DNA from: Selaginella tamariscina
Taxonomy: Eukaryota > Streptophyta > Lycopodiopsida > Selaginellales > Selaginellaceae
NCBI GenBank assembly: GCA_003024785.1
Contig: PUQB01000602.1
Location: 1-64,000, forward strand
Length of the DNA stretch: 64,000 bases
Direction: 5' to 3'
Shown here: positions 26,492-61,471 of the stretch, one piece after another
Position numbering within the stretch: the stretch's first letter is position 1
Layout: each line of letters starts with the position of its first letter
Translations under genes and position numbers: made by a program
The notes under the pieces: model-generated
What the model saw: the letters and a program-made list of their open reading frames with translations, nothing else
What the model was told of the DNA's origin: nothing
Database searches by the model: none

Positions 26492-27089
26492 TGTTAAAGG
26501 TAAAATGTTAGGAGCATAGGACGTCCTACTGTAGAGAGAATAAGGGTAGGAAGGTCCGTAGTAAGCATGGAAGGAAAGGCTGTGGAAGAGGAAAATCCTT
26601 ACTGAGAGGAAAAGGTAAGGAAAAAGGAAAAGGAAAAGGTAAAGGATGACGTGGCGAGAGGAAGAGTAGTTAAGGGGAGTTAGGGCAACGAAGGAAGGGT
26701 CTCCATTTGAAGTTCTAGCAGGAGATAAGGTTCTCTACACTTTGTCTCTTGTATTCATGTTAGTAATGAAAGGTGCATATTAGAGAATCTTGTGTGTGTG
26801 TATGTTTACTCTCAATGAATGGATCTAACAAGGCAATAGCCAAAATCCGTTCTTGCCTTTGACTTTGGAGACCAGTCATAGTGGCACTGGGAGAAGTCTG
26901 ATATATATACAGATATATTGAGAGTTGAGGAAGGAAAGGGTGTAGCCTTTCCTGTACGTTGTATGAAAGGTTTCCTGTCTACGTGAAGGAAACAGGTTAA
27001 ATAGGAAAAGGTGAGGCATAGAGCCCTTTTCCTGTTTAACAATTGGCGACCACGGAGGATTTCGCCATTGCAGTGTTAGCATTCATTGA

Positions 27090-34960: not shown

Positions 34961-35475
34961 TGTTAAAGGTAAAATATTAGGAGCATAGGATCCTACTGTA
35001 GAGAGAATAAGGGTAGGAAGGTCGTAGTAAGCATGGAAGGAAAGGCTGTGAAGAGGAAAATCCTTACCGAGAGGAAAAGGTAAGGAAAAGGAAAAGGAAA
35101 AGGTAAAGGATGACGTGGCGAGAGGAAGAGTAGTTAAGGGAAGTTAGGGCAACGAAGGAAGGGTCTCCATTTGAAGTTCTAGCAGGAGATAAAGGTTCTC
35201 TACACTTTGTCTTTGTATTCATGTTAGTAATGAAAGGTGCATATTAGAGAATCTTGTGTGTGTGTATGTTACTCTCAATGAATGGATCTAACAAGGCAAT
35301 AGCCAAAATCCGTTCTTGCCCTTGACTTTGGAGACCAGTCATAGTGGCACTGGGAGAAGTCTGATATATATACAGATATATTGAGAGTTGAGAAAGGAAA
35401 GGGTGTAGCCTTTCCTGTACGTTGTATGAAAGGTTTCCTGTCTGCGTGAAGGAAACAGGTTAAATAGGAAAAGGT
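34961..35475 (+). mobile_element. 3' LTR of gypsy element 1 (end truncated)
   Basis: Matches the 5' LTR at 26492 from TGTTAAAGGT onward with several 1-2 base indels. It leaves the match near 35475, just before the expected TTTAACA end. Confidence 0.75.
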
Positions 35476-35915
35476 GAAAGAGATAAGAGAAAAAGGTGCG
35501 TAAAGGGAAAAGGTTGTGAAGGAGGAAAATCCTTACCGAGAGGAAAAGGTGAGTAAGAAAGAAGGAAAGGCTATGAAGGAGGAAAATCCTTTATCGAGAG
35601 AAAAAGGTGAGTAAGGAAAAGGAAAGGAAATATCAGAAGGAAAAGGATGACGTGGCGAGAGGAAGGGTAGTTAAGGGTAGTTAGTGCAAGGAAGAAAGGG
35701 GTCTCCAGAAGGTCTCCATAGGAAGTTCTAACAGGAGAAAGGGTCTCCATTTGAAGTTTCAGCAGGAGATAAAGGTTCTCTACACTTTGTCTTTTTATTC
35801 ATGTTAGTAATGAAAGGTGCATATTATAAGATCTTGTGTGTGTGTATGTATACTCTCAATAAATGGATCTACAAGGCAATAGCCAAAATCCGTTCTTGCC
35901 CTTGACTTCGGAGAC
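35476..35915 (+). mobile_element. Further LTR fragment of the element 1 family
   Basis: Purine-rich repeats (GGAAAGG, GGAAAATCC) and then a second copy of the LTR middle, including TCTACACTTTGTC and AATGAAAGGTGCAT. It is cut at 35915 by the LTR of element 2. This shows repeated LTR rearrangement. Confidence 0.6.
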
Positions 35916-36553
35916 TGTCAAGCCACGATCCAGGAAACAGGAAGAGAGCAGGATTCCAAGGACATGAAGGCTTGACTCAGGACAGGACGAGAGCAGGACA
36001 GGAACCAGGAATAGGAACATGACGGATCTAGGAGTAGGACAGGATTAGGATAGGATCCGGGAGCAAGACAGGAAAGCATAGGATAGGATCCGGGAGCAAA
36101 ACAGGAACAGGACAGATCCCGGAGCAGGACAGGATCCAGAACAGGACAGGAAATAGGAGCAAGACAGGAACAAGACAGGAACAAGACAAGACAAGATTGA
36201 TCGTAGTAAGACTGGTGTTGATAGTAACTGATTGTACAACAATTAGGTCGGAGCTTTTATGCTCACAACTCCAAGAGCTAATCTAGGCATGCATGCAAAA
36301 GTGGTTGCATGCATGCAAAAGTGATTGCATGCATGCAGAGGCTAAGATGAGTCCACATGTCCTTATCCTCTAGGCATATCCTGTGGCATATCCTGTAGGA
36401 ATATCCTGCAACCGAATCCTGTGTCCGGAATCCTGGTAGGAGTATCCTGTAGGAAAATCCTGCAACCCATATCATGTATCCGGAATCCTGTAGGAAAGTC
36501 CTGCAACCCATGTCCTGTATCCGGAATCCTATATTCTGTATCGGGTCGTGACA
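35916..36553 (-). repeat. 3' LTR of element 2
   Basis: Nearly identical to 41615-42253. The plus strand 35930-36200 is a run of AGGACAGGA / GGATCCGGGAGCA variants, a minisatellite of about 20-30 bp. RY motifs GCATGCATGC lie at 36287, 36307 and 36327, and the self-complementary site at 36218-36230. Confidence 0.88.
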
Positions 36554-36564
36554 ACACCTCCTCC

Positions 36565-37330
36565 CTAAAGACGAGTTCCACGAGTCTTGGGACCTGGTTT
36601 AGCAGGATAATGCCGATGGAAGGCAGCAACCTTGGAAGAAGCATGGAGTAAGTTGGATGCAGGTTCCCAAGTGCGATCAGTAGGCAGGTACCCTTTCCAA
36701 TCCACCAAGTATTGGAGTTGGTGACGATGAAGACGAGAGTCAAGGATGGCTGCGACTTCGTACTCAGGTTCCGTGTCAATGACCACAGGAGGGGAGGAGA
36801 AGAAACACGACCAGGAAGAGAAGAAGGATGATACGGCTCCAACAAAGAAGTGTGAAACACAGGATGAAGTTTCACCGTGGATGGTAACTCGAGTCGGAAA
36901 GCTACAGGATTTACCTCCGCCACGATCCTATAAGGGCCCAATCGTTGAAATCCAACTTAGAAGAAGGCCTGTTAGTGCGAATGTGTCGACGAAGAAGCCA
37001 CACGAGATCACCAATCTTGTATGCAGGTGCCGGCTGTCGGTGGAGCATCAGCATGATGCTTGTATCGTTCCTGTGCATGTTGAAGATGAACCTGGAGATC
37101 ATCCTGTACCTGCCGAAGATGCTGAAGACGATCCTGTACTGCAGGAGTGGAAGAAGGAGAAGCGGTAGGAGCAAAGTCAAAACGTGGATGGTGGCCTGTA
37201 AGAGCAAAGAAAGGTGTCTGTCCTGTAGATGCGTGGATGGAGTTGTTGTAGGCAAACTCTGCCATTGGAAGGAGTTCAACCAGTTGTCCTGCTGGTAACT
37301 GATGAAGCAACGAAGATACTGTTCTAAGGT
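36565..37330 (-). pseudogene. Integrase C-terminus and chromodomain of element 2
   Basis: After a frame change near 37330 integrase continues in shifted frames, with EFAYNNSIHASTGQTPF and then [15 protein letters not shown] chromodomain follows at about 36600-36770: [19 protein letters not shown] and TWEPASNL. The Tyr, Trp and Tyr positions of the aromatic cage that reads methylated histone H3 are present. Chromodomains of chromoviruses are known to steer integration to heterochromatin. Confidence 0.82.
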
Positions 37331-39264
37331 CTGAATTGTGCGTCGGACTGCCCATCGGTTTTGTGGTGATATCCTGAAGAAAGATCCGCTTTGACCTGTA
37401 GACTCCGAAGAAGCTCTCGCCAAAACTTGGACATGAATTGTGGACCTCGATCGGAAACAATGCTCTCAGGAAGACCATGATGTCGGAACACCTCGCGGAT
37501 CACCAACTCGGCAGTTGTCTGACCTGTAGCTGTCTTGTTGCAGGGTAGGAAATGAGCCTGCTTGGTGAAACGGTCAACCACCACAAGAACTGCATCAAAT
37601 CCACGAGAAGGAGGAAGATCTGTGAGGAAATCCATAGAAATGGATCTCCAAGGAGCAGACGGAACAGGAAGAGGACGAAGAAGACCAGAGGGTGCATGAT
37701 GAGGCATCTTCGACCTGCTACAAGTGTCACAACTCCGTACAAACCTCTCCACAAAACCTCGCAACCCAGGCCACCAATAGTTGCGAGTCACCAACTCCAC
37801 TGTCTTGGCCACACCAAAATGTCCTGTAGCCGGGGTATCATGACAATCCTGTACCACACGAGTCCTGGAAATACCAACAGGAACGTACAGGAGACCTTCC
37901 CGGTACAGGAGTCCATCCTGTATGGTGAACAGGTTGTAGTCTGGACGGGAACTGGAGGAAGAGGAACTTGCAACGTCAGGATGAATGTGTGAGAACACAT
38001 TCTTTGCCAAGTCGTCTGTAGCCAACTGCGAACGGACGTCCTGTAGGAGTGTTGAATTTGCTGGAGCCTGATGAACCTGCAGTGCCGCAAGCCGGAAACG
38101 ATCAGGACCCAACAACACTTGCCTTTGACCGTCAAATGCAGGATCGCCCGGGCTTGGTGCAAGGTAAGAGCGCCTAGACAATGCGTCCGCCTTGCCATTC
38201 CGAAAGCCGGGCCTGTAGACGATGACGAAGTCAAAACGTGATAGGAACTCTGCCCACCTAGCCTGTCGCCGACTGAGGACCCGAGCCGTTTGAAAGTACT
38301 CCAGGTTCTTGTGATCCGTAAGAACTTGTACAGGATGTGCAGCACCTTCCAGGAAATGCCGCCACTCCTCAAACGAATCCACAATGGCCTTGAGTTCCTT
38401 GTCATGAATCTCGTAGTTGATCTCCGCCGACAGGAACTTACGAGAGTGAAAAGCTACAGGATGAAGCAACTTGTCCTCTCCAACTTGCGATAGCACGGAT
38501 CCTACTGCAAAATCCGAGGCATCTGCTTCAATGAAGAAAGGATGAGAAGGGTCAGGATGTGCTAAAATCGGAGCTGTCGTGAAAACGTCCTTGAGTGTTG
38601 TGAACGCGTGTTCCGCCTTGTCGGACCAAGAGAAAAGTCCTGTGCGCTTGGTGAGTTCTGTGAGTGGAAGTACACGCTTGGAGAAGTCCTGTATGAACCG
38701 CCTGTAGAAGTTTGCAAAGCCAAGGAAACATTGTACATCTCGTACCGACTTGGGCCTCTCCCACTCCACGATGGTCTTCACCTTGTGCATGTCCATGGAA
38801 ACGCCAGCAGGAGAGACGATGTAGCCCAAGAACTCCACCGAATCCCTATCGAAAAAACACTTCTCCAACTTCGCGTACAGGCCATGCTCGCGAAGCCGCT
38901 CTAAAACTAGTCGTACATGCTTGTCATGTGCCGCCTGGTCCTTGGAGAAAATCAAGATGTCGTCGAGGTAGATCACCACAAACTGGTCCAAGAAGTCACG
39001 GAAAATGTCGTTCACCATGTGTTGGAACACAGCTGGGGCATTGGTAAGGCCGAAAGGCATTACCGTGTACTCAAAATGTCCATACCTTGTACGAAAGGCA
39101 GTCTTCCACTCATCGCCGGGACGAATCCGTACAAGGTTGTAGGCTCCTCGTAAGTCGATCTTCGTGAACACCTTTGCTCCTCGCAGCCGATCGAGAAGTT
39201 CCGGGATCAATGGCAACGGGTACCGATTCCGAATGGTGACTTGATTCAAACCCCTGTAGTCCAC
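37324..39264 (-). CDS. RT-RNase H-integrase of element 2 (646-codon open stretch)
   Basis: The longest open frame in the window. RT motifs: MDYRGLNQVTI, FTKIDLRGAYN, MPFGLTNAPAVFQ and the catalytic VIYLDDILIFS. RNase H: FFIEADASDFAVGSVLSQ, HDKELKAIVDSFEEWRHFL and DHKNLEYF. Integrase: GHFGVAKTVELV with CDTCSRSK (zinc finger), SMDFLTDLPPS (D1), IVSDRGPQF (D2) and GYHHKTDGQSDA (E region). The N-terminal RT (RHSKSPAGAPIFFVKKKDG) lies upstream in another frame at 39246-39600. Catalytic residues look intact. Confidence 0.88.
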   Translation of the reverse strand: MDYRGLNQVTIRNRYPLPLIPELLDRLRGAKVFTKIDLRGAYNLVRIRPGDEWKTAFRTRYGHFEYTVMPFGLTNAPAVFQHMVNDIFRDFLDQFVVIYLDDILIFSKDQAAHDKHVRLVLERLREHGLYAKLEKCFFDRDSVEFLGYIVSPAGVSMDMHKVKTIVEWERPKSVRDVQCFLGFANFYRRFIQDFSKRVLPLTELTKRTGLFSWSDKAEHAFTTLKDVFTTAPILAHPDPSHPFFIEADASDFAVGSVLSQVGEDKLLHPVAFHSRKFLSAEINYEIHDKELKAIVDSFEEWRHFLEGAAHPVQVLTDHKNLEYFQTARVLSRRQARWAEFLSRFDFVIVYRPGFRNGKADALSRRSYLAPSPGDPAFDGQRQVLLGPDRFRLAALQVHQAPANSTLLQDVRSQLATDDLAKNVFSHIHPDVASSSSSSSRPDYNLFTIQDGLLYREGLLYVPVGISRTRVVQDCHDTPATGHFGVAKTVELVTRNYWWPGLRGFVERFVRSCDTCSRSKMPHHAPSGLLRPLPVPSAPWRSISMDFLTDLPPSRGFDAVLVVVDRFTKQAHFLPCNKTATGQTTAELVIREVFRHHGLPESIVSDRGPQFMSKFWRELLRSLQVKADLSSGYHHKTDGQSDAQFRP

Positions 39265-40559: not shown

Positions 40560-41522
40560 GGACATTGGAGTTTTCCGACTGAACTTCAGCTTCAACTTCA
40601 CGCGTCTTGAAGTTCCTGGCTTTAATAGGACAATCTGCCACCTTGTGTCCTGCTCCACCACAATACAAGCACAGGTTCTCACTGCGACGACGTTGCTTCT
40701 CGCAGCGGAAAGAGAGCCACGCTTGGATTTCTCAACCTCCATAGGAACTACTCCAGAAGGTGGTGCAGGAACATGTACCACAGCTGCAGGATTGGTTTGC
40801 AGGAACTGTGACGGGATCTTTCCTGACGACGCTCGAACAAACGGTTGTCGCAACGAACAGCTTGTTGCATGATCTCCGCTAATGTTTGGGCATCCGGTAA
40901 CGTAAGGAGAAGGTCCTTCACGTCGTCCCTCAACCCAAAACGGAAGTGTTCGATCAATGCAGTCTCGTCCCATGGAATGTTCGTGCAAAGTTGCTGAAAT
41001 TCGGATGCATAGACGGAAGCTGGTCGGGATCCTTGAGTGAGCTTCCGTAACTTCGTGCATGCAGAACGGTACTTATCAGGATCTCCAAAACAGGCTTCAA
41101 AGGCAGCCACGAAACCTTCAAAGTCTTCCATCAATGGATCGTCACGCTCCAGCAAGGGGGCAACCCAAGCCCGTGGAGATCCACTTAGTAAGGATGCCAA
41201 AAGACCCACCTTTTGAGCATCAGTCGAGTAGCGCCGTGGTTGCATACGGATCAAGAGCCGGATCTGATTCAGGAAACCTTGGAAATCGGCACGATTACCA
41301 CTGAACTTCTCTGGCATGCTAACCTTCGGCTCCGAAGAAAAGTTTGATGAAGAGGGAACCACCGATGCCTGGGAGAGAGCCTGCGCAGCAGCCTTGGAGG
41401 ATGCATCAGCAGCTGCATGTGCCGCAGTGGTGGAACCTTGCAGGTCGGTGACCACTTGGCGCAAAGTGGCCAGCTCATGAAGTAGCATTTGGTGCTCGTG
41501 TTGAAAGCTCAAAATCAGCCAT
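40560..41522 (-). pseudogene. Gag of element 2
   Basis: ATG at 41522-41520, then a one-base difference in a T-run puts the rest in another frame. 40748-41512 is open, with PEKFSGNRADFQGFLNQIRL, SPRAWVAPLLERDD and RFGLRDDVKDLLLTLPD. The CCHC knuckle CLYCGGAGHKVADC is at about 40630-40675. It provides the capsid and nucleocapsid functions. Confidence 0.8.
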
Positions 41523-41599: not shown

Positions 41600-41612
41600 C
41601 AGTTACTATCAA
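41600..41612 (-). promoter_or_regulatory. Putative self-priming primer-binding site of element 2
   Basis: Two bases inside the 5' LTR end, element-sense TTGATAGTAACTG lies here. It is the exact complement of element-sense CAGTTACTATCAA at 41928-41916 in the LTR. Tf1/sushi-type elements prime reverse transcription with the first 11 or so nucleotides of their own RNA folded onto such a site. I see no obvious tRNA complement at this position. Confidence 0.6.
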
Positions 41613-41951
41613 ACTGTCAAGCCACGATCCAGGAACCAGGAAGGAACAGGATTCCAAGGACAGGAAGGCTTGACTCAGGAACAGGACCGAGAGCAGGACA
41701 GGAACTAGGAATAGGAACAGGACGGATCTAGGAGCAAGACAGGATCAGGATAGGATCCGGGAGCAAGACAGGAAAGCAGGATAGGATCCGGAGCAAAACA
41801 GGAACAGGACAGGATCCGGAGCAGGACAGGATCCAGGAACAGGACAGGAAATAGGAGCGAGACAGGAACAGGAAGGAAACAAGACAAGACAAGATTGATC
41901 GTAGTAAGACTGGTGTTGATAGTAACTGATTGTACAACAATTAGGTCGGAG

Positions 41952-41958
41952 CTTTTAT
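41952..41958 (-). promoter_or_regulatory. TATA-like box of the element 2 LTR
   Basis: ATAAAAG in element sense. The first A is 31 nt upstream of the A in CAGTTACTATC, the predicted transcription start. The same arrangement occurs in the 3' LTR and in the inverted LTR fragment. Confidence 0.55.
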
Positions 41959-41984
41959 GCTCACAACTCCAAGAGCTAATCTAG

Positions 41985-42034
41985 GCATGCATGCAAAAGT
42001 GGTTGCATGCATGCAAAAGTGATTGCATGCATGC
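41985..42034. promoter_or_regulatory. Three RY motifs spaced exactly 20 bp
   Basis: GCATGCATGC at 41985-41994, 42005-42014 and 42025-42034. CATGCA(TG) is the RY element bound by the B3 domains of ABI3/FUS3/LEC2 and VAL proteins in seed plants. Placement upstream of the TATA-like box suggests an enhancer or silencer. Confidence 0.6.
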
Positions 42035-42253
42035 AGAGGCTAAGATGAGTCCACATGTCCCTTATCCTCTAGGCATATCCTGTGGCATATCCTGTAGGAA
42101 TATCCTGCAACCGAATCCTGTGTCCGGAATCCTGGTAGGAATATCCTGTAGGAAATCCTGCAACCCATATCCTGTATCCGGAATCCTGTAGGAAAGTCCT
42201 GCAACCCATGTCCTGTATCCGGAATCCTATATTCCGTTATCGGGTCGTTGACA

Positions 42254-42674
42254 GCATGCAATCACTTTTGCATGCATGCAACCACTTTTGCATGCATGCC
42301 TAGATTAGCTCTTGGAGTTGTGAGCATAAAAGCTCCGACCTAATTGTTGTACAATCAGTTACTATCAACACAGTCTTACTACGATCAATCTTGTCTTGTC
42401 TTGTTTCCTGTCCTGTTCCTGTCTCGCTCCTATTTCCTGTCCTGTTCCTGGATCCTGTCCTTGCTCCGGGATCCTGTCCTGTTCCTGTTTTGCTCCCGGA
42501 TTCTATCATGTGCTTTCCTGTCTTGCTCCCGGATCCTATCCTAATCCTGTCCTACTCCTAGATCCGTCCTGTTCCTATTCCTGGTTCCTGTCCTGCTCTC
42601 GGTCCTGTTCCTGAGTCAAGCCTTCATGTCCTTGGAATCCTGCTCTCTTCCTGTTTCCTGGATCGTGGCTTGAC
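42254..42674 (+). mobile_element. Inverted, truncated LTR of the element 2 family
   Basis: The reverse complement of about 41615-42037. It keeps the minisatellite, the self-complementary site, the TATA-like box and most of the RY array, and ends in TTGACA at 42674. The outer part of U3 is missing. With the 5' LTR it forms an inverted repeat with a spacer of about 216 bp. Its promoter would point right, away from element 2. Confidence 0.85.
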
Positions 42675-45230
42675 ACCCAGATGCATCGATCTTATGCTCT
42701 TCAATCTGCCAGATGATATGGCCACCACTAAACACAATGACGTCCCAAAGTGGAATTGAAGTAGAAAACATCCACATCATTGTTGTTTTTAAGCTTGCCA
42801 AATGCTTCCTCAACAACAATTGAACTTTCAAGTAGGTAGATTGTGTTATTTTCATGTACAACAAAGGTTTTGTCGTGAATGAAAAAAAGGTAGACTTGAC
42901 TGTTACACATATGCTGGAAAATTTCTTCTTCTTTTACAAGTTATGGCATGGAGTTACTACGTGGTTACATTGAAAGACGCTATATTCAAGTGTAACAATG
43001 ATTCGGCTGCTGCACACCCTCGATGGTTACGACTCCAACATTGACATCATCCTAATCATATTGGACAAAAGGATGTTGTTGTCATCCACTTTAGGAATTG
43101 AGTACAATGAATACAAAGAGAGGTTAGTGCGCTCTATGAGGTTGCTATTAGAGCTTTACGTGCTAAAGAAGGTATAGTTGCAAAACCTTACGGTTGAAGC
43201 TAGGTTAATATTAAATGCCGTTGCCACTTTGGGGCGTCATGTCTACTGTTTAGAAAGGGGTGCTACTTAGGTTGCTCAAGCTCTAAAATGACTTTCTTTT
43301 AGGTAGAAATTAGGGAGGCGTCAAAACTATTCATAAACAAATAATTTGACATTTAAATTAATTGGAAGTGCAGTACCTGAAAATAACAACAATGCATTGG
43401 TTAAACATGTGACTAACATTCATCACAAGTCTCCTTTCCCGTCATCTAGGGAGGAACCCGACAAAGTCGATTGATACATTTATGTAGAAGCTACTTTCCC
43501 TCAATCCTAACTTGGAAGAAGATGTGGTTTATGAGATAGAAGACGGTGACGACTACTTCAACATAAGTTTAGAAACACTTCTATGGTGGGCATCCTCAAC
43601 GAACACGCTTCTAGCATCCCTTGAGGTAACTCTAGAAATGACATCAACATGACAAACCAACAACCTTTTTATTATGACACTCTTTGAAATTGTTACCATC
43701 ATGCTGCATCTCTACATGAACCCTTACAGCTTCTCTCGTACACAGAGCATGTTGCACATTTGATGGTATAAGACAATACTTGCATTTTAAGCTAACTGCA
43801 AGTCCTTGCCTAATAACTTTGTTGACTATGAAGTCTCCCAGTAATAGACAGTTGTAGTCAAAAAGTTTTGAAATGTCTTCCCAACTTATTGTTCCCTTAT
43901 TGTTGTCCCAGAATAATTTTGCCCTCCACTAAAATCTAACATCTTCTCTACATGCCATAAACTTCACTCTTTTGCTACTCAGAATCTTGTGTAGCAAGCT
44001 GTCTCAAGGGATGTGCTAATGGCCAAAACTTTGTTTGTTAAAGGAAAATCAATTTTGGGAGATTTCTTACCAAGTGCGGATGAATCCATCCCATCAATGC
44101 ATATGAGAAGATAGTTTTGTGCCTCCTCACTGCTAAACTTCTTAGCAATTCTAAAGGCTAGCACCGATGGCATCATACTAGACCTAATATTGATGGAATA
44201 AAATGTAACAAAGATAAGCACCAAAAAATAATTAATGTAACATCTACTTATACCTATTCAACTTAACAACGGAATAAAGAATTTAAAAATTGATATAATG
44301 CCTCCGCTGCCCAATGTTATTATAATTTATCGCATGCTCGCTTTCTTTGATGTATATGGGATCTCGACATGTGCTAGCGTTTTAATACCACAAATGTTCT
44401 TGAAAATAACACAATAGCAACATGTCATTTCTCATAAATAACCATCATTCTGGTAACTTAATGCCTCTCAAACAACATTAATAGCATGCTTGCATAAATT
44501 TATTGCATGCTTGTTTGCACCAATGATACTATCGTCTTTTGTCCACTTTTTATGTCATCTTTCAGTAGGTATTTAATAATACATTTGCAGTGTGGTAGTG
44601 TCTTACTATTGAACCTGACAACTAGTCTTACCGTCACACTTTATTCAACACCTGACATTCCTTTTCAGCGGCATTGATGGCTTTCATTTTCTTCTCTCTA
44701 GGGTTTAGCACAATCAACATGGACAACTCTGCTAGTTGTGCTAAGCACATTCGAGAGGCATTTGATATGGTGAAAAACAAAAACCTCTAATCTATGTTGT
44801 CATCACCAAAGCATGTGCTATGCACTCCATTGAGCACCCTTATCTGGTAAGTGCTTTTTAAGCTAATGCTTCACGCTTTGTCATGTCTTCATAGCATGTC
44901 AAACAATCCTCATTGCTTACTCAAGTATTCTAAAATAATAAGAGAGTGTGTTTAGATATGGTGAAGACTGACCATGCATTTGGTGTGGAGTGGGATGCCA
45001 CTCTATTCAACATACATGGAGAAGAATTCCATGAGTTGTTTGTGTCACATTACATGTGTGCTAGAGAGTGTCTTGTGCTCATTCTTGAGATTAAAAGATT
45101 ATCAAGACTTGGATTCTTACACAATTCCACACATGAGGGGATTTTGTGTAGGGTTGCAAATGCTATTCATAATGTAACCATGCTAAAACATTTCAATGTG
45201 TAATACATTTGGCCACATTCGGTTGATTTA
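42675..45230. other. Unrecognised, partly coding-like DNA
   Basis: The minus strand 42690-42910 encodes a peptide-like stretch with FGKLKNNNDVDVFYFNS and GHIIWQIEEHKI. The plus strand 44946-45203 and minus strand 43979-44224 are open but unrecognised. Stops and frame changes occur throughout, so this may be an old transposon or pseudogene. No known motif supports a name. Confidence 0.3.
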
Positions 45231-58676: not shown

Positions 58677-58970
58677 ATACTAGAAATATTAAAGAATGTT
58701 TCTAATAGTAAGAGATCATGAGCAGTACATTCTAGTAATATTCTAGAATATTTCCAATACTTTAAATTTATCATATTAGTTAGCAATTGCACAAACGCGC
58801 ATGTGTGTGTCTGGCTCGTAATAGCACATGCATGAATGTAGCAGATAATTGTAAAAAAAAACGGTGCATGTTAAATAAAAATCTGTACTAAGTTAAAAAA
58901 ATCAAATAGTTGTGATACTAAGAATTCTTACATCCTAATGCACTAAATATTAAATAAATGATACATTTGA

Positions 58971-59611
58971 TTAACCTGTATTCTCACTCAAAGGCCTTCC
59001 CTTTGATTCTATAGGGAAGAAAAAGATCAACACCGCTGCCAACAAAGAAACAGATGCAAACACAAGTAATGAGAGTGTTTGATGACAATTTCTCATCAAA
59101 GCCACGGCCACAAGAGGACACAGCATACCCCCTATTCGTGCAAATGAGTTTGCAATGCCTAGTCCTGTTGTCCTCGATGAAGTTGGATAAACCTTGTAAA
59201 TAAATACAAAAAGCTCGTTAGTAGGAACTAATGGGCTCTTCCACACACACGCACACACGCGAGAGAGACACGTAGTCACGTTCTTAAATGAGTAAAGTAC
59301 AAAATATATGCAGGCATTTTAGACATAAATAGTTCTTTTAATGTCCTTGAATACCAAAACTTAAATATGAATGAACTTGCTTAAAATGAATTGTTAGCGT
59401 TACCTCAGGTGCATAAACATAGAGGATTGTGAAAGAACCCATGATACACGCTCGAGCACCGAAGAGACAGAATGTGGTAAACCCCTCTGGTTGATGGTGT
59501 AAAAGTGGCAGTAAAAAAATGCCACACAATATGAAAAGTGCAGACATGGACAGTTTCCTCCCGTAATAATCCACCATAGCAGCTGCTACCGCCAACCCCG
59601 GAAGTTCTGCA

Positions 59612-59655
<44 letters not shown>

Positions 59656-59659
59656 TGTT

Positions 59660-59723
<64 letters not shown>

Positions 59724-60686
59724 CCCACCAGCAGAGCTCGTTATCAAACATCTCGAAACATATGTGTTTCCTGTGTTTACAAAACAGTTTATACTTATTT
59801 AATTTACTTAAATGTTTAATATTGATACTGATTACCTCAGAGGTTTTTGTGAGATTATCGGCCGGCCCGCAACACAAGCTCCTCTTTGGCTACTTATTTG
59901 GGATGCCAGAAGCACAAGACCATAATAAGTGAAAGCATTTGCAAAGAAAACTAACCACAGAAGAATAGTCGAACGTATTAATGGAGGAGAAAAAAGCACT
60001 GTAAATGCTGTTATAAACTTATCCCCTCGTGATCTGCGTATACAGTAGGAATATAAGAATTAATATGTTTAACTATTAATAAAGTACATATAGAATATAT
60101 ATAGAGCAAGAAATGTACCAAACACGTCCTACTATAAATACACATACATTACTTTTACACACACACACACCACGAGAGAGAGAGAGTTTTGAGAAATCCT
60201 CTCGTGTTTAGGAAGTCCCAACTCTTATCTAACGCGTCTGTGTGTGTACACATACCGTTTTGAATTATTGAATTCTTTTCATCTAAGAGATGTGACACCT
60301 CAATCTCCATTTCTTCATCTTTGTGTGCGAAACATATAAACCTTCCTCGTGGGAGTTCTTTTCTGTTCAAGGATGCCATTTTCTTGAGAATGGCTAATGC
60401 ACTTGCATTGTCTCCTCTAGCTGCGTGGTACCGTGGAGATTCTGGCACCATTGGATAGAAGATCAATAAGATAATCAATGGCAAGGATGAAATCCTAGAA
60501 GCCACCTCCATCCCAGACTTGGCATTATTAGCTGCAAAATATACATACACACATACATATAAGTTATGTGTGTGTGAGAGAGAGAGAGAACCAAATATTT
60601 AGTAAACATAGAATGCTTTAATATTTTAAGAAAAAAGAAGTATATAGTTATATGCGTAAAACAACAAACAAATAAATGATATAGGC

Positions 60687-60720
<34 letters not shown>

Positions 60721-61471
60721 TATACCCAAGCTAGTGCAGCTTCCACAACCGAACCAATTGTCCAGAAGACCGAGAAAATAACCATCCACATGCCTCTCTT
60801 CGGAGAAGGTATAAACTCGAGAAACCATGAAGACACAACTGGACCACCTCCCAAACCAACACCGACTAAGCCTCTTAAGATCAAGAGTGTGTGGTAATTG
60901 GGTGAGAATGCACTAAGAAACCCCGCAACGAAGGTAACTACTGCTGTTGCAAAAAAGCCGGTCCTGTGCAAGCAAACTTTACAAAGAAAATCAATATAGT
61001 ATAGCACACATACACACACACATTATATATGTGTCTGTGTGTGTTTGAGAGAAAAATTCAAGAGCTGTTTAATACTATGCTTGTAAATCTTATAAACCTC
61101 CGTGTGTGTGTGAGAGAGAGAGACCTAGATCTGAGCGTGTGCGTATATGTAACGCACCTAGATCGGATATGTATGTGTGTGCGTGGGATAACATATACAC
61201 ACACTTACCTTCTGCCTTTGGAATCGGACAAGATGCCCCAAAGAATATGCACCGATCATCATCCAGCGAATACTACACTCGTAATGAAGCTCTCTTGTTT
61301 AGCGGACAGTTTCCACACCATCTGGACAGCAGGACCAACAAATGAGAGGAGCATCATCTCCATGGCCTCGGCCATCCATGACATGCCTGCGTATCCGAGG
61401 ATTAATACATGGAACCTACCGAAACCCAGGTGCTCAATTGCATCGTCCCAGTGTGTATGTGTCGTGCTCAT
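58971..61471 (-). CDS. NiaP/OCT7-like major facilitator transporter
   Basis: A 12-helix MFS protein of the SV2/organic cation-carnitine transporter 7 group; the Arabidopsis member transports nicotinate. Exons recognised: 61471-61209, 60963-60726, 60531-60256, an uncertain one near 60236-60180, 60033-59836, an uncertain short one near 59780-59735, 59606-59404 and 59192-58971 (stop). Motifs: [41 protein letters not shown] (loop 2-3 signature), [43 protein letters not shown] and [17 protein letters not shown]. Start ATG at 61471. An upstream ATG at 61475 gives a better match but is one base out of frame (G-run near 61447). Further indels near 61263, 61241 and 60489 break the frame. The substrate is inferred from family only. 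Confidence 0.83.
59613..59720. repeat. (GT)n-(GA)n microsatellite in a transporter intron
   Basis: GT repeats at about 59613-59682 run into GA repeats to 59720. The tract lies right at the acceptor side of the exon ending at 59606 and the donor side of the short exon upstream. Confidence 0.9.
60691..60718. repeat. (CA)n microsatellite in a transporter intron
   Basis: CA repeats start about 8 bp past the exon 2 donor on the minus strand. Confidence 0.9.

Follow-up and report, generated by a model that had tools for sequence, protein, structure and literature searches.

The Ty3/gypsy chromovirus at 42253-35916 on the minus strand of the window (the whole 64,000-nt stretch of DNA analysed) is very probably a Tcn1-like (Tf1/sushi-related) element that primes its own reverse transcription, as judged from its sequence and from modelling of its RNA. 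Self-priming, put forward in the original prediction, is the best reading of this element because no TGG follows its 5' LTR, because the two complementary sites carry matched changes in different copies, because a stable helix is predicted between them, and because the element takes a position with the non-plant, Tf1/sushi-like chromoviruses in the tree. The reading is not new for the lineage, since self-priming has already been predicted for the Tcn1 clade (PMC6317226, in the part of the paper available); what is added here is comparative support from matched changes between copies. In a literature search that covered few subscription papers, no report was found of a matched-change test between LTR site and primer-binding site (PBS) in plant elements. 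A high-copy family with matched changes, together with a tRNA-Met-type chromovirus in the same genome, provides a natural system for studies of primer-site inheritance.

Anatomy of the element and the 13-nt complementarity

The features of the element are listed in Table 1. The window copy is rearranged, its 5' LTR being abutted by an inverted partial LTR, and no 5-bp target duplication was seen around the element when one was looked for. For the inverted LTR at 42254 a special origin was entertained but abandoned, given that LTR matches in both orientations were found in 6 of the 51 loci checked; these look like nesting or rearrangement. The only PDB sequence related to the Gag protein at E 0.01 was PEG10. 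The chromodomain carries the aromatic cage residues Y, W and Y and is thus of the group I type, as read by eye, with the assignment of the cage positions guided by the available part of PMC3350952.

Table 1. Positions of the features of the chromovirus element and of the adjoining LTR piece in the window
Feature	Position	Strand	Remarks
5' LTR	41615..42253	-	639 nt, TGTCAA...TTGACA; 95.7% to 3' LTR
3' LTR	35916..36553	-	carries the same 13-nt LTR site at 36230-36218
TATA-like ATAAAAG	41952..41958	-	31 nt upstream of A 41927; spacing kept in 30/30 near-identical loci
Proposed RNA 5' end / self-primer CAGTTACTATCAA	41916..41928	-	complementarity, chance test and copy comparison
2-nt spacer GT, LTR end to PBS	41613..41614	-	AT in some copies
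Predicted PBS TTGATAGTAACTG	41600..41612	-	complement of LTR site; simulation and folding
gag ORF	40748..41512	-	254 aa; Retrotrans_gag, DUF4939 and Ty3_capsid matches
pol ORF piece	37324..39264	-	open, 646 aa: RT, RNase H, zinc-binding and core integrase
Chromodomain	36565..36801	-	PF00385, E 6.2e-15; Y/W/Y at cage positions, by eye
Inverted partial LTR (LTR positions 224-639)	42254..42675	+	adjoins 5' LTR

The 5' LTR terminates in ...CTTGACA at 41615 and is followed by GT and then by TTGATAGTAACTG (41612-41600, minus strand), which is the exact complement of CAGTTACTATCAA in the LTR (41928-41916). Four places in the window carry one or other of the 13-mers, namely these two, 36230-36218 (the site of the 3' LTR, so that both LTRs carry the site, as originally claimed) and 42356-42368 (the site of the inverted LTR piece). 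The first letter of ATAAAAG is at 41958, which puts the motif 31 nt upstream of the A at 41927, in agreement with the original prediction. A published self-primer criterion requires complementarity to the LTR over 10 nt or more, beginning 0-5 nt after it (PMC6317226, in the part available); in the window element 13 nt are complementary, located 2 nt after the 5' LTR.

To estimate how much complementarity arises by chance, the 20 nt that follow the LTR were compared with 2000 simulated LTRs, generated by a first-order Markov model with the same neighbour frequencies, and the longest complement in each was recorded. The mean longest complement was 6.07 nt and the maximum 10 nt, and 13 nt were reached in none of the 2000. 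When the same test was applied to three copies of a tRNA-Met-type chromovirus, the longest complements were 6, 9 and 7 nt (equalled in 1790, 36 and 748 of 2000 simulations), and 7 nt (294/2000) were obtained for the gypsy element on the plus strand of the window. The 13-nt complementarity is therefore confirmed as real and well above chance.

Folding of the 368-nt leader placed nt 1-12 of the window copy's transcript on the PBS, in the MFE as well as in the centroid structure. The whole-leader fold was only modestly better than those of shuffled sequences (z -1.75; 6/100 as good). Of 13 copies tried, L078 and L085 were unmatched by the script, which required intact sites; in the 11 copies folded, nt 1-12 paired with the PBS at a mean probability of 0.93-0.98.

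The anatomy, the complementarity, the matched changes, the predicted helix, the lack of a TGG-started site and the kinship were observed or computed for the present element, and the steps of the mechanism are modelled on Tf1. By analogy with Tf1, RNA polymerase II would start at about the A of 41927, and the first ~12 nt of the RNA (AGUUACUAUCAA) would fold back over ~300 nt onto the PBS after the 5' LTR. The RNase H of the element would cut after AGUUACUAUCAA, giving a 3' end from which synthesis would proceed across the GT spacer into U5 and R; the nascent strand would then jump to the 3' R. Integrase would trim the 2 extra terminal nt that derive from the GT spacer, leaving ...CA.

Conservation and matched changes among genomic copies

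The genome searched comprised 300.7 Mb in 1391 contigs. When the stretch was queried against it, 3013 first-look candidates were obtained, 40 of which were scored, all spanning the whole query. The 30 loci cut out from the scored matches all retained 13/13 pairs and the 31-nt spacing between the TATA-like motif and the A. Since these loci are near-identical and were retrieved by their similarity to the window stretch, a second sample was chosen via gag: 20 stretches upstream of DUF4939 matches, taken from across the score range of the 150 scored matches, without prior knowledge of their sites. In L071, L072, L080 and L086 either the PBS was missing or no LTR site (R) lay within 800 nt upstream, and these were set aside; the other 16 could be read at both sites. 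Position 8 of R and position 6 of the PBS agreed in all 16 gag-chosen copies (13 T:A and 3 A:T), so that the co-variation of LTR site and PBS suggested as a check in the original prediction was found at the variable position. The full complementarity expected in other copies held in all of the near-identical loci but was perfect in only 7 of the 16 gag-chosen copies (8 counting G-U). For R positions 1-13, pairing was retained in 12, 15, 13, 16, 16, 16, 15, 16, 16, 16, 15, 16 and 16 of the 16 copies, respectively; the weaker pairing at position 1 is what an RNA start at the A would predict.

The two-sided change was followed through the genome by means of its two halves, the PBS carrying T (PBS-T; 65 places) and the LTR site carrying A (R-A; 178 places, 100 among the matches listed). 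The comparison of the two covered the contigs up to C738 and thus 42 of the 65 PBS-T places, leaving out the R-A place on C749 and the 23 PBS-T places beyond C738. The matching LTR letter was present at 37 of these 42 places, absent from 3, and without a clear reading at 2. The exact R-A pattern lay 180-337 nt upstream at 32 of the 42, and R-A with a further change at five more (L089, L093, L095, L097 and L098); a discordant R-T was found at L090, L092 and L096, no R was visible at L091, and L094 had T followed by an extra A. Seen from the R-A side, 21 elements have both LTRs; exact PBS-T was found in 14 of them, and the remaining seven comprised three with PBS-A, three with a 1-nt PBS deletion and one with PBS-T and an adjacent deletion. 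The 1-nt PBS deletion, at the variable position, is identical in the R-A copies L100, L101 and L105. In L089 and L093 the letters are matched at the outer pair as well, which weighs little because that pair often fails elsewhere (in 4/16 gag-chosen and in 6/9 readable PBS-T-chosen copies).

The match between LTR site and PBS among copies is thus strong, yet not absolute. The R-A/PBS-T change may be a single event inherited by one subfamily, and the copies are in that case not independent. We infer that each discordant copy is a dead element, a recombinant or an intermediate in a conversion of primer to PBS. A possible, though rather doubtful, route for such a conversion is that the self-primer is copied into the new PBS: a change arising at the 5' end of the RNA would in this way reach the PBS in the course of a few cycles. 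A completed switch of this kind would be represented by the R-A/PBS-T subfamily, and the three R-T/PBS-T, the three R-A/PBS-A and the three one-nt-deletion copies would be unconverted or failed intermediates.

Alternative explanations and the primer of a second chromovirus family

It is very unlikely that two unrelated mutations within a subfamily gave rise to the matched letters and became complementary by accident; the resemblance of the R-A/PBS-T copies to one subfamily and the presence of discordant copies would fit such an origin, but the compared loci differ little elsewhere around both sites and the change hits exactly the paired positions. The complementarity could also belong to an RNA stem that controls packaging, translation or dimer formation, with priming by some other RNA, given that any leader stem could likewise give two-sided changes and a stable fold. 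We consider this improbable, however, since one end of the stem coincides with the nucleotide predicted to be transcribed first and the other lies exactly 2 nt from the LTR end, the positions that self-priming requires, since no other primer-binding site was seen after the LTR, and since the related Tf1/sushi elements prime by this arrangement (PMC4600332 and PMC6317226, in the parts available).

A tRNA or a tRNA half as primer would accord with the use of tRNA-Met by most plant chromoviruses (PMC6317226, in the part available) and with the TGGTATC-started site after the LTR of a second chromovirus in the same genome. The window element, however, does not have the TGG-started PBS that marks tRNA-Met-primed plant chromoviruses: the first 23 nt downstream of its 5' LTR contain no TGG, and therefore no CCA-ended tRNA can pair or prime there. 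A tRNA 3'-end match after the LTR, for which the original prediction had suggested a search, is thus ruled against, and priming by a tRNA is extremely unlikely. No tRNA genes were found within the window.

The second chromovirus family was found among eight stretches fetched around chromodomain matches. Three of these (L062, L067 and L068) belong to it, L066 belongs to the family of the window element, and no LTR pair was seen in L061 (partly N), L063, L064 and L065. The LTR of L068 is followed by ATTGGTATCAGAGCAAG, that of L067 by the same site with one change and that of L062 by the site with two; we take this site to be of the initiator tRNA-Met type of plant elements. The contrast with tRNA-Met-primed elements drawn by the original prediction is therefore visible inside one genome, but the departure of the window element from them is unsurprising for its lineage (PMC6317226, in the part available). 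The chromodomain match of L062 lies inside an open frame of 1129 aa.

Further elements lie in the window. The LTR repeats of the plus-strand gypsy element are at 26492-27014 and 34961-35477, with the TGG-started site ATTGGCGACCACGG after the LTR end, and the 3' LTR of the chromovirus adjoins another fragment of the gypsy LTR sequence, ending at 35915. Near 55.4 kb lies a degraded element with a related gag, in which no clear second site could be made out. A multi-exon gene similar to organic cation/carnitine transporter 7 lies on the minus strand at 58900-61450, with one exon seemingly broken.

Kinship and comparison with known systems

A tree was built from 29 rows chosen from two match lists, one obtained with the pol piece of the window element and one with that of L062. 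The RT-integrase sequence of the window element grouped with rows from Absidia, Tremellales, Plasmodiophora and frog and with five environmental rows (100/99), and L062 grouped with four angiosperm rows (91/97). The angiosperm, Pinus and Chara rows stood apart from the window element, but the deep split is weak (78/79). The named matches of the window pol piece were from frogs, Absidia, Tremellales and Plasmodiophora, with one Closterium protein (among 120 listed of 7951), and those of the L062 pol piece were from Closterium, Chara, pine and many angiosperms, with two records labelled as bacterial MAGs. Neither Tcn1 of Cryptococcus nor SM-Tcn1 appeared by name among the 120 matches listed of 7951, and scans of viral contigs gave no relatives. 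By its predicted protein sequence, the window element is placed with the non-plant (Tf1/sushi-like) chromoviruses, apart from the other plant clades. A non-seed plant host, expected of the plant Tcn1 clade, is indicated by the matches of one gene, the transporter of the window, which is 65 and 61% identical to two proteins of Selaginella moellendorffii, the nearest species, with Sphagnum next by score (51%). On this evidence the host is probably a species of Selaginella other than S. moellendorffii.

The comparisons that follow draw on the available parts of the cited papers. Among plant chromoviruses, self-priming has been predicted for the majority of the moss and club-moss Tcn1-clade elements and for no other group (PMC6317226), and the case for it in plant Tcn1 elements is made there from complementarity alone (PMC6317226). 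Like the window element, members of this clade have a group I type chromodomain and are related to the non-plant Tf1/sushi elements. SM-Tcn1 of S. moellendorffii shares the T-rich leader of the window element (PMC2864245); its published description, however, gives 440-bp LTRs and neither a tRNA nor a self-primer site (PMC2864245), in contrast to the 639-nt LTR and the 13-nt site found here.

Self-priming was first demonstrated for Tf1 and proposed for Tj1 (PMC4600332). In Tf1 and Tj1 of the fission yeasts and in the vertebrate sushi group, the PBS is complementary to the RNA 5' end, an arrangement like that predicted for the window element (PMC4600332, PMC6317226), and the window Gag is related to the sushi-derived PEG10. 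The window element differs from Tf1, Tj1 and the sushi group in its plant host and in its site of 13 nt with a 2-nt spacer. With the tRNA-Met-primed plant chromoviruses (Tekay, CRM, Reina and Galadriel) it has the chromovirus layout in common, whereas their site is of the tRNA-Met type; the family of L062, L067 and L068, which resembles them, resides in the same genome as the window element.
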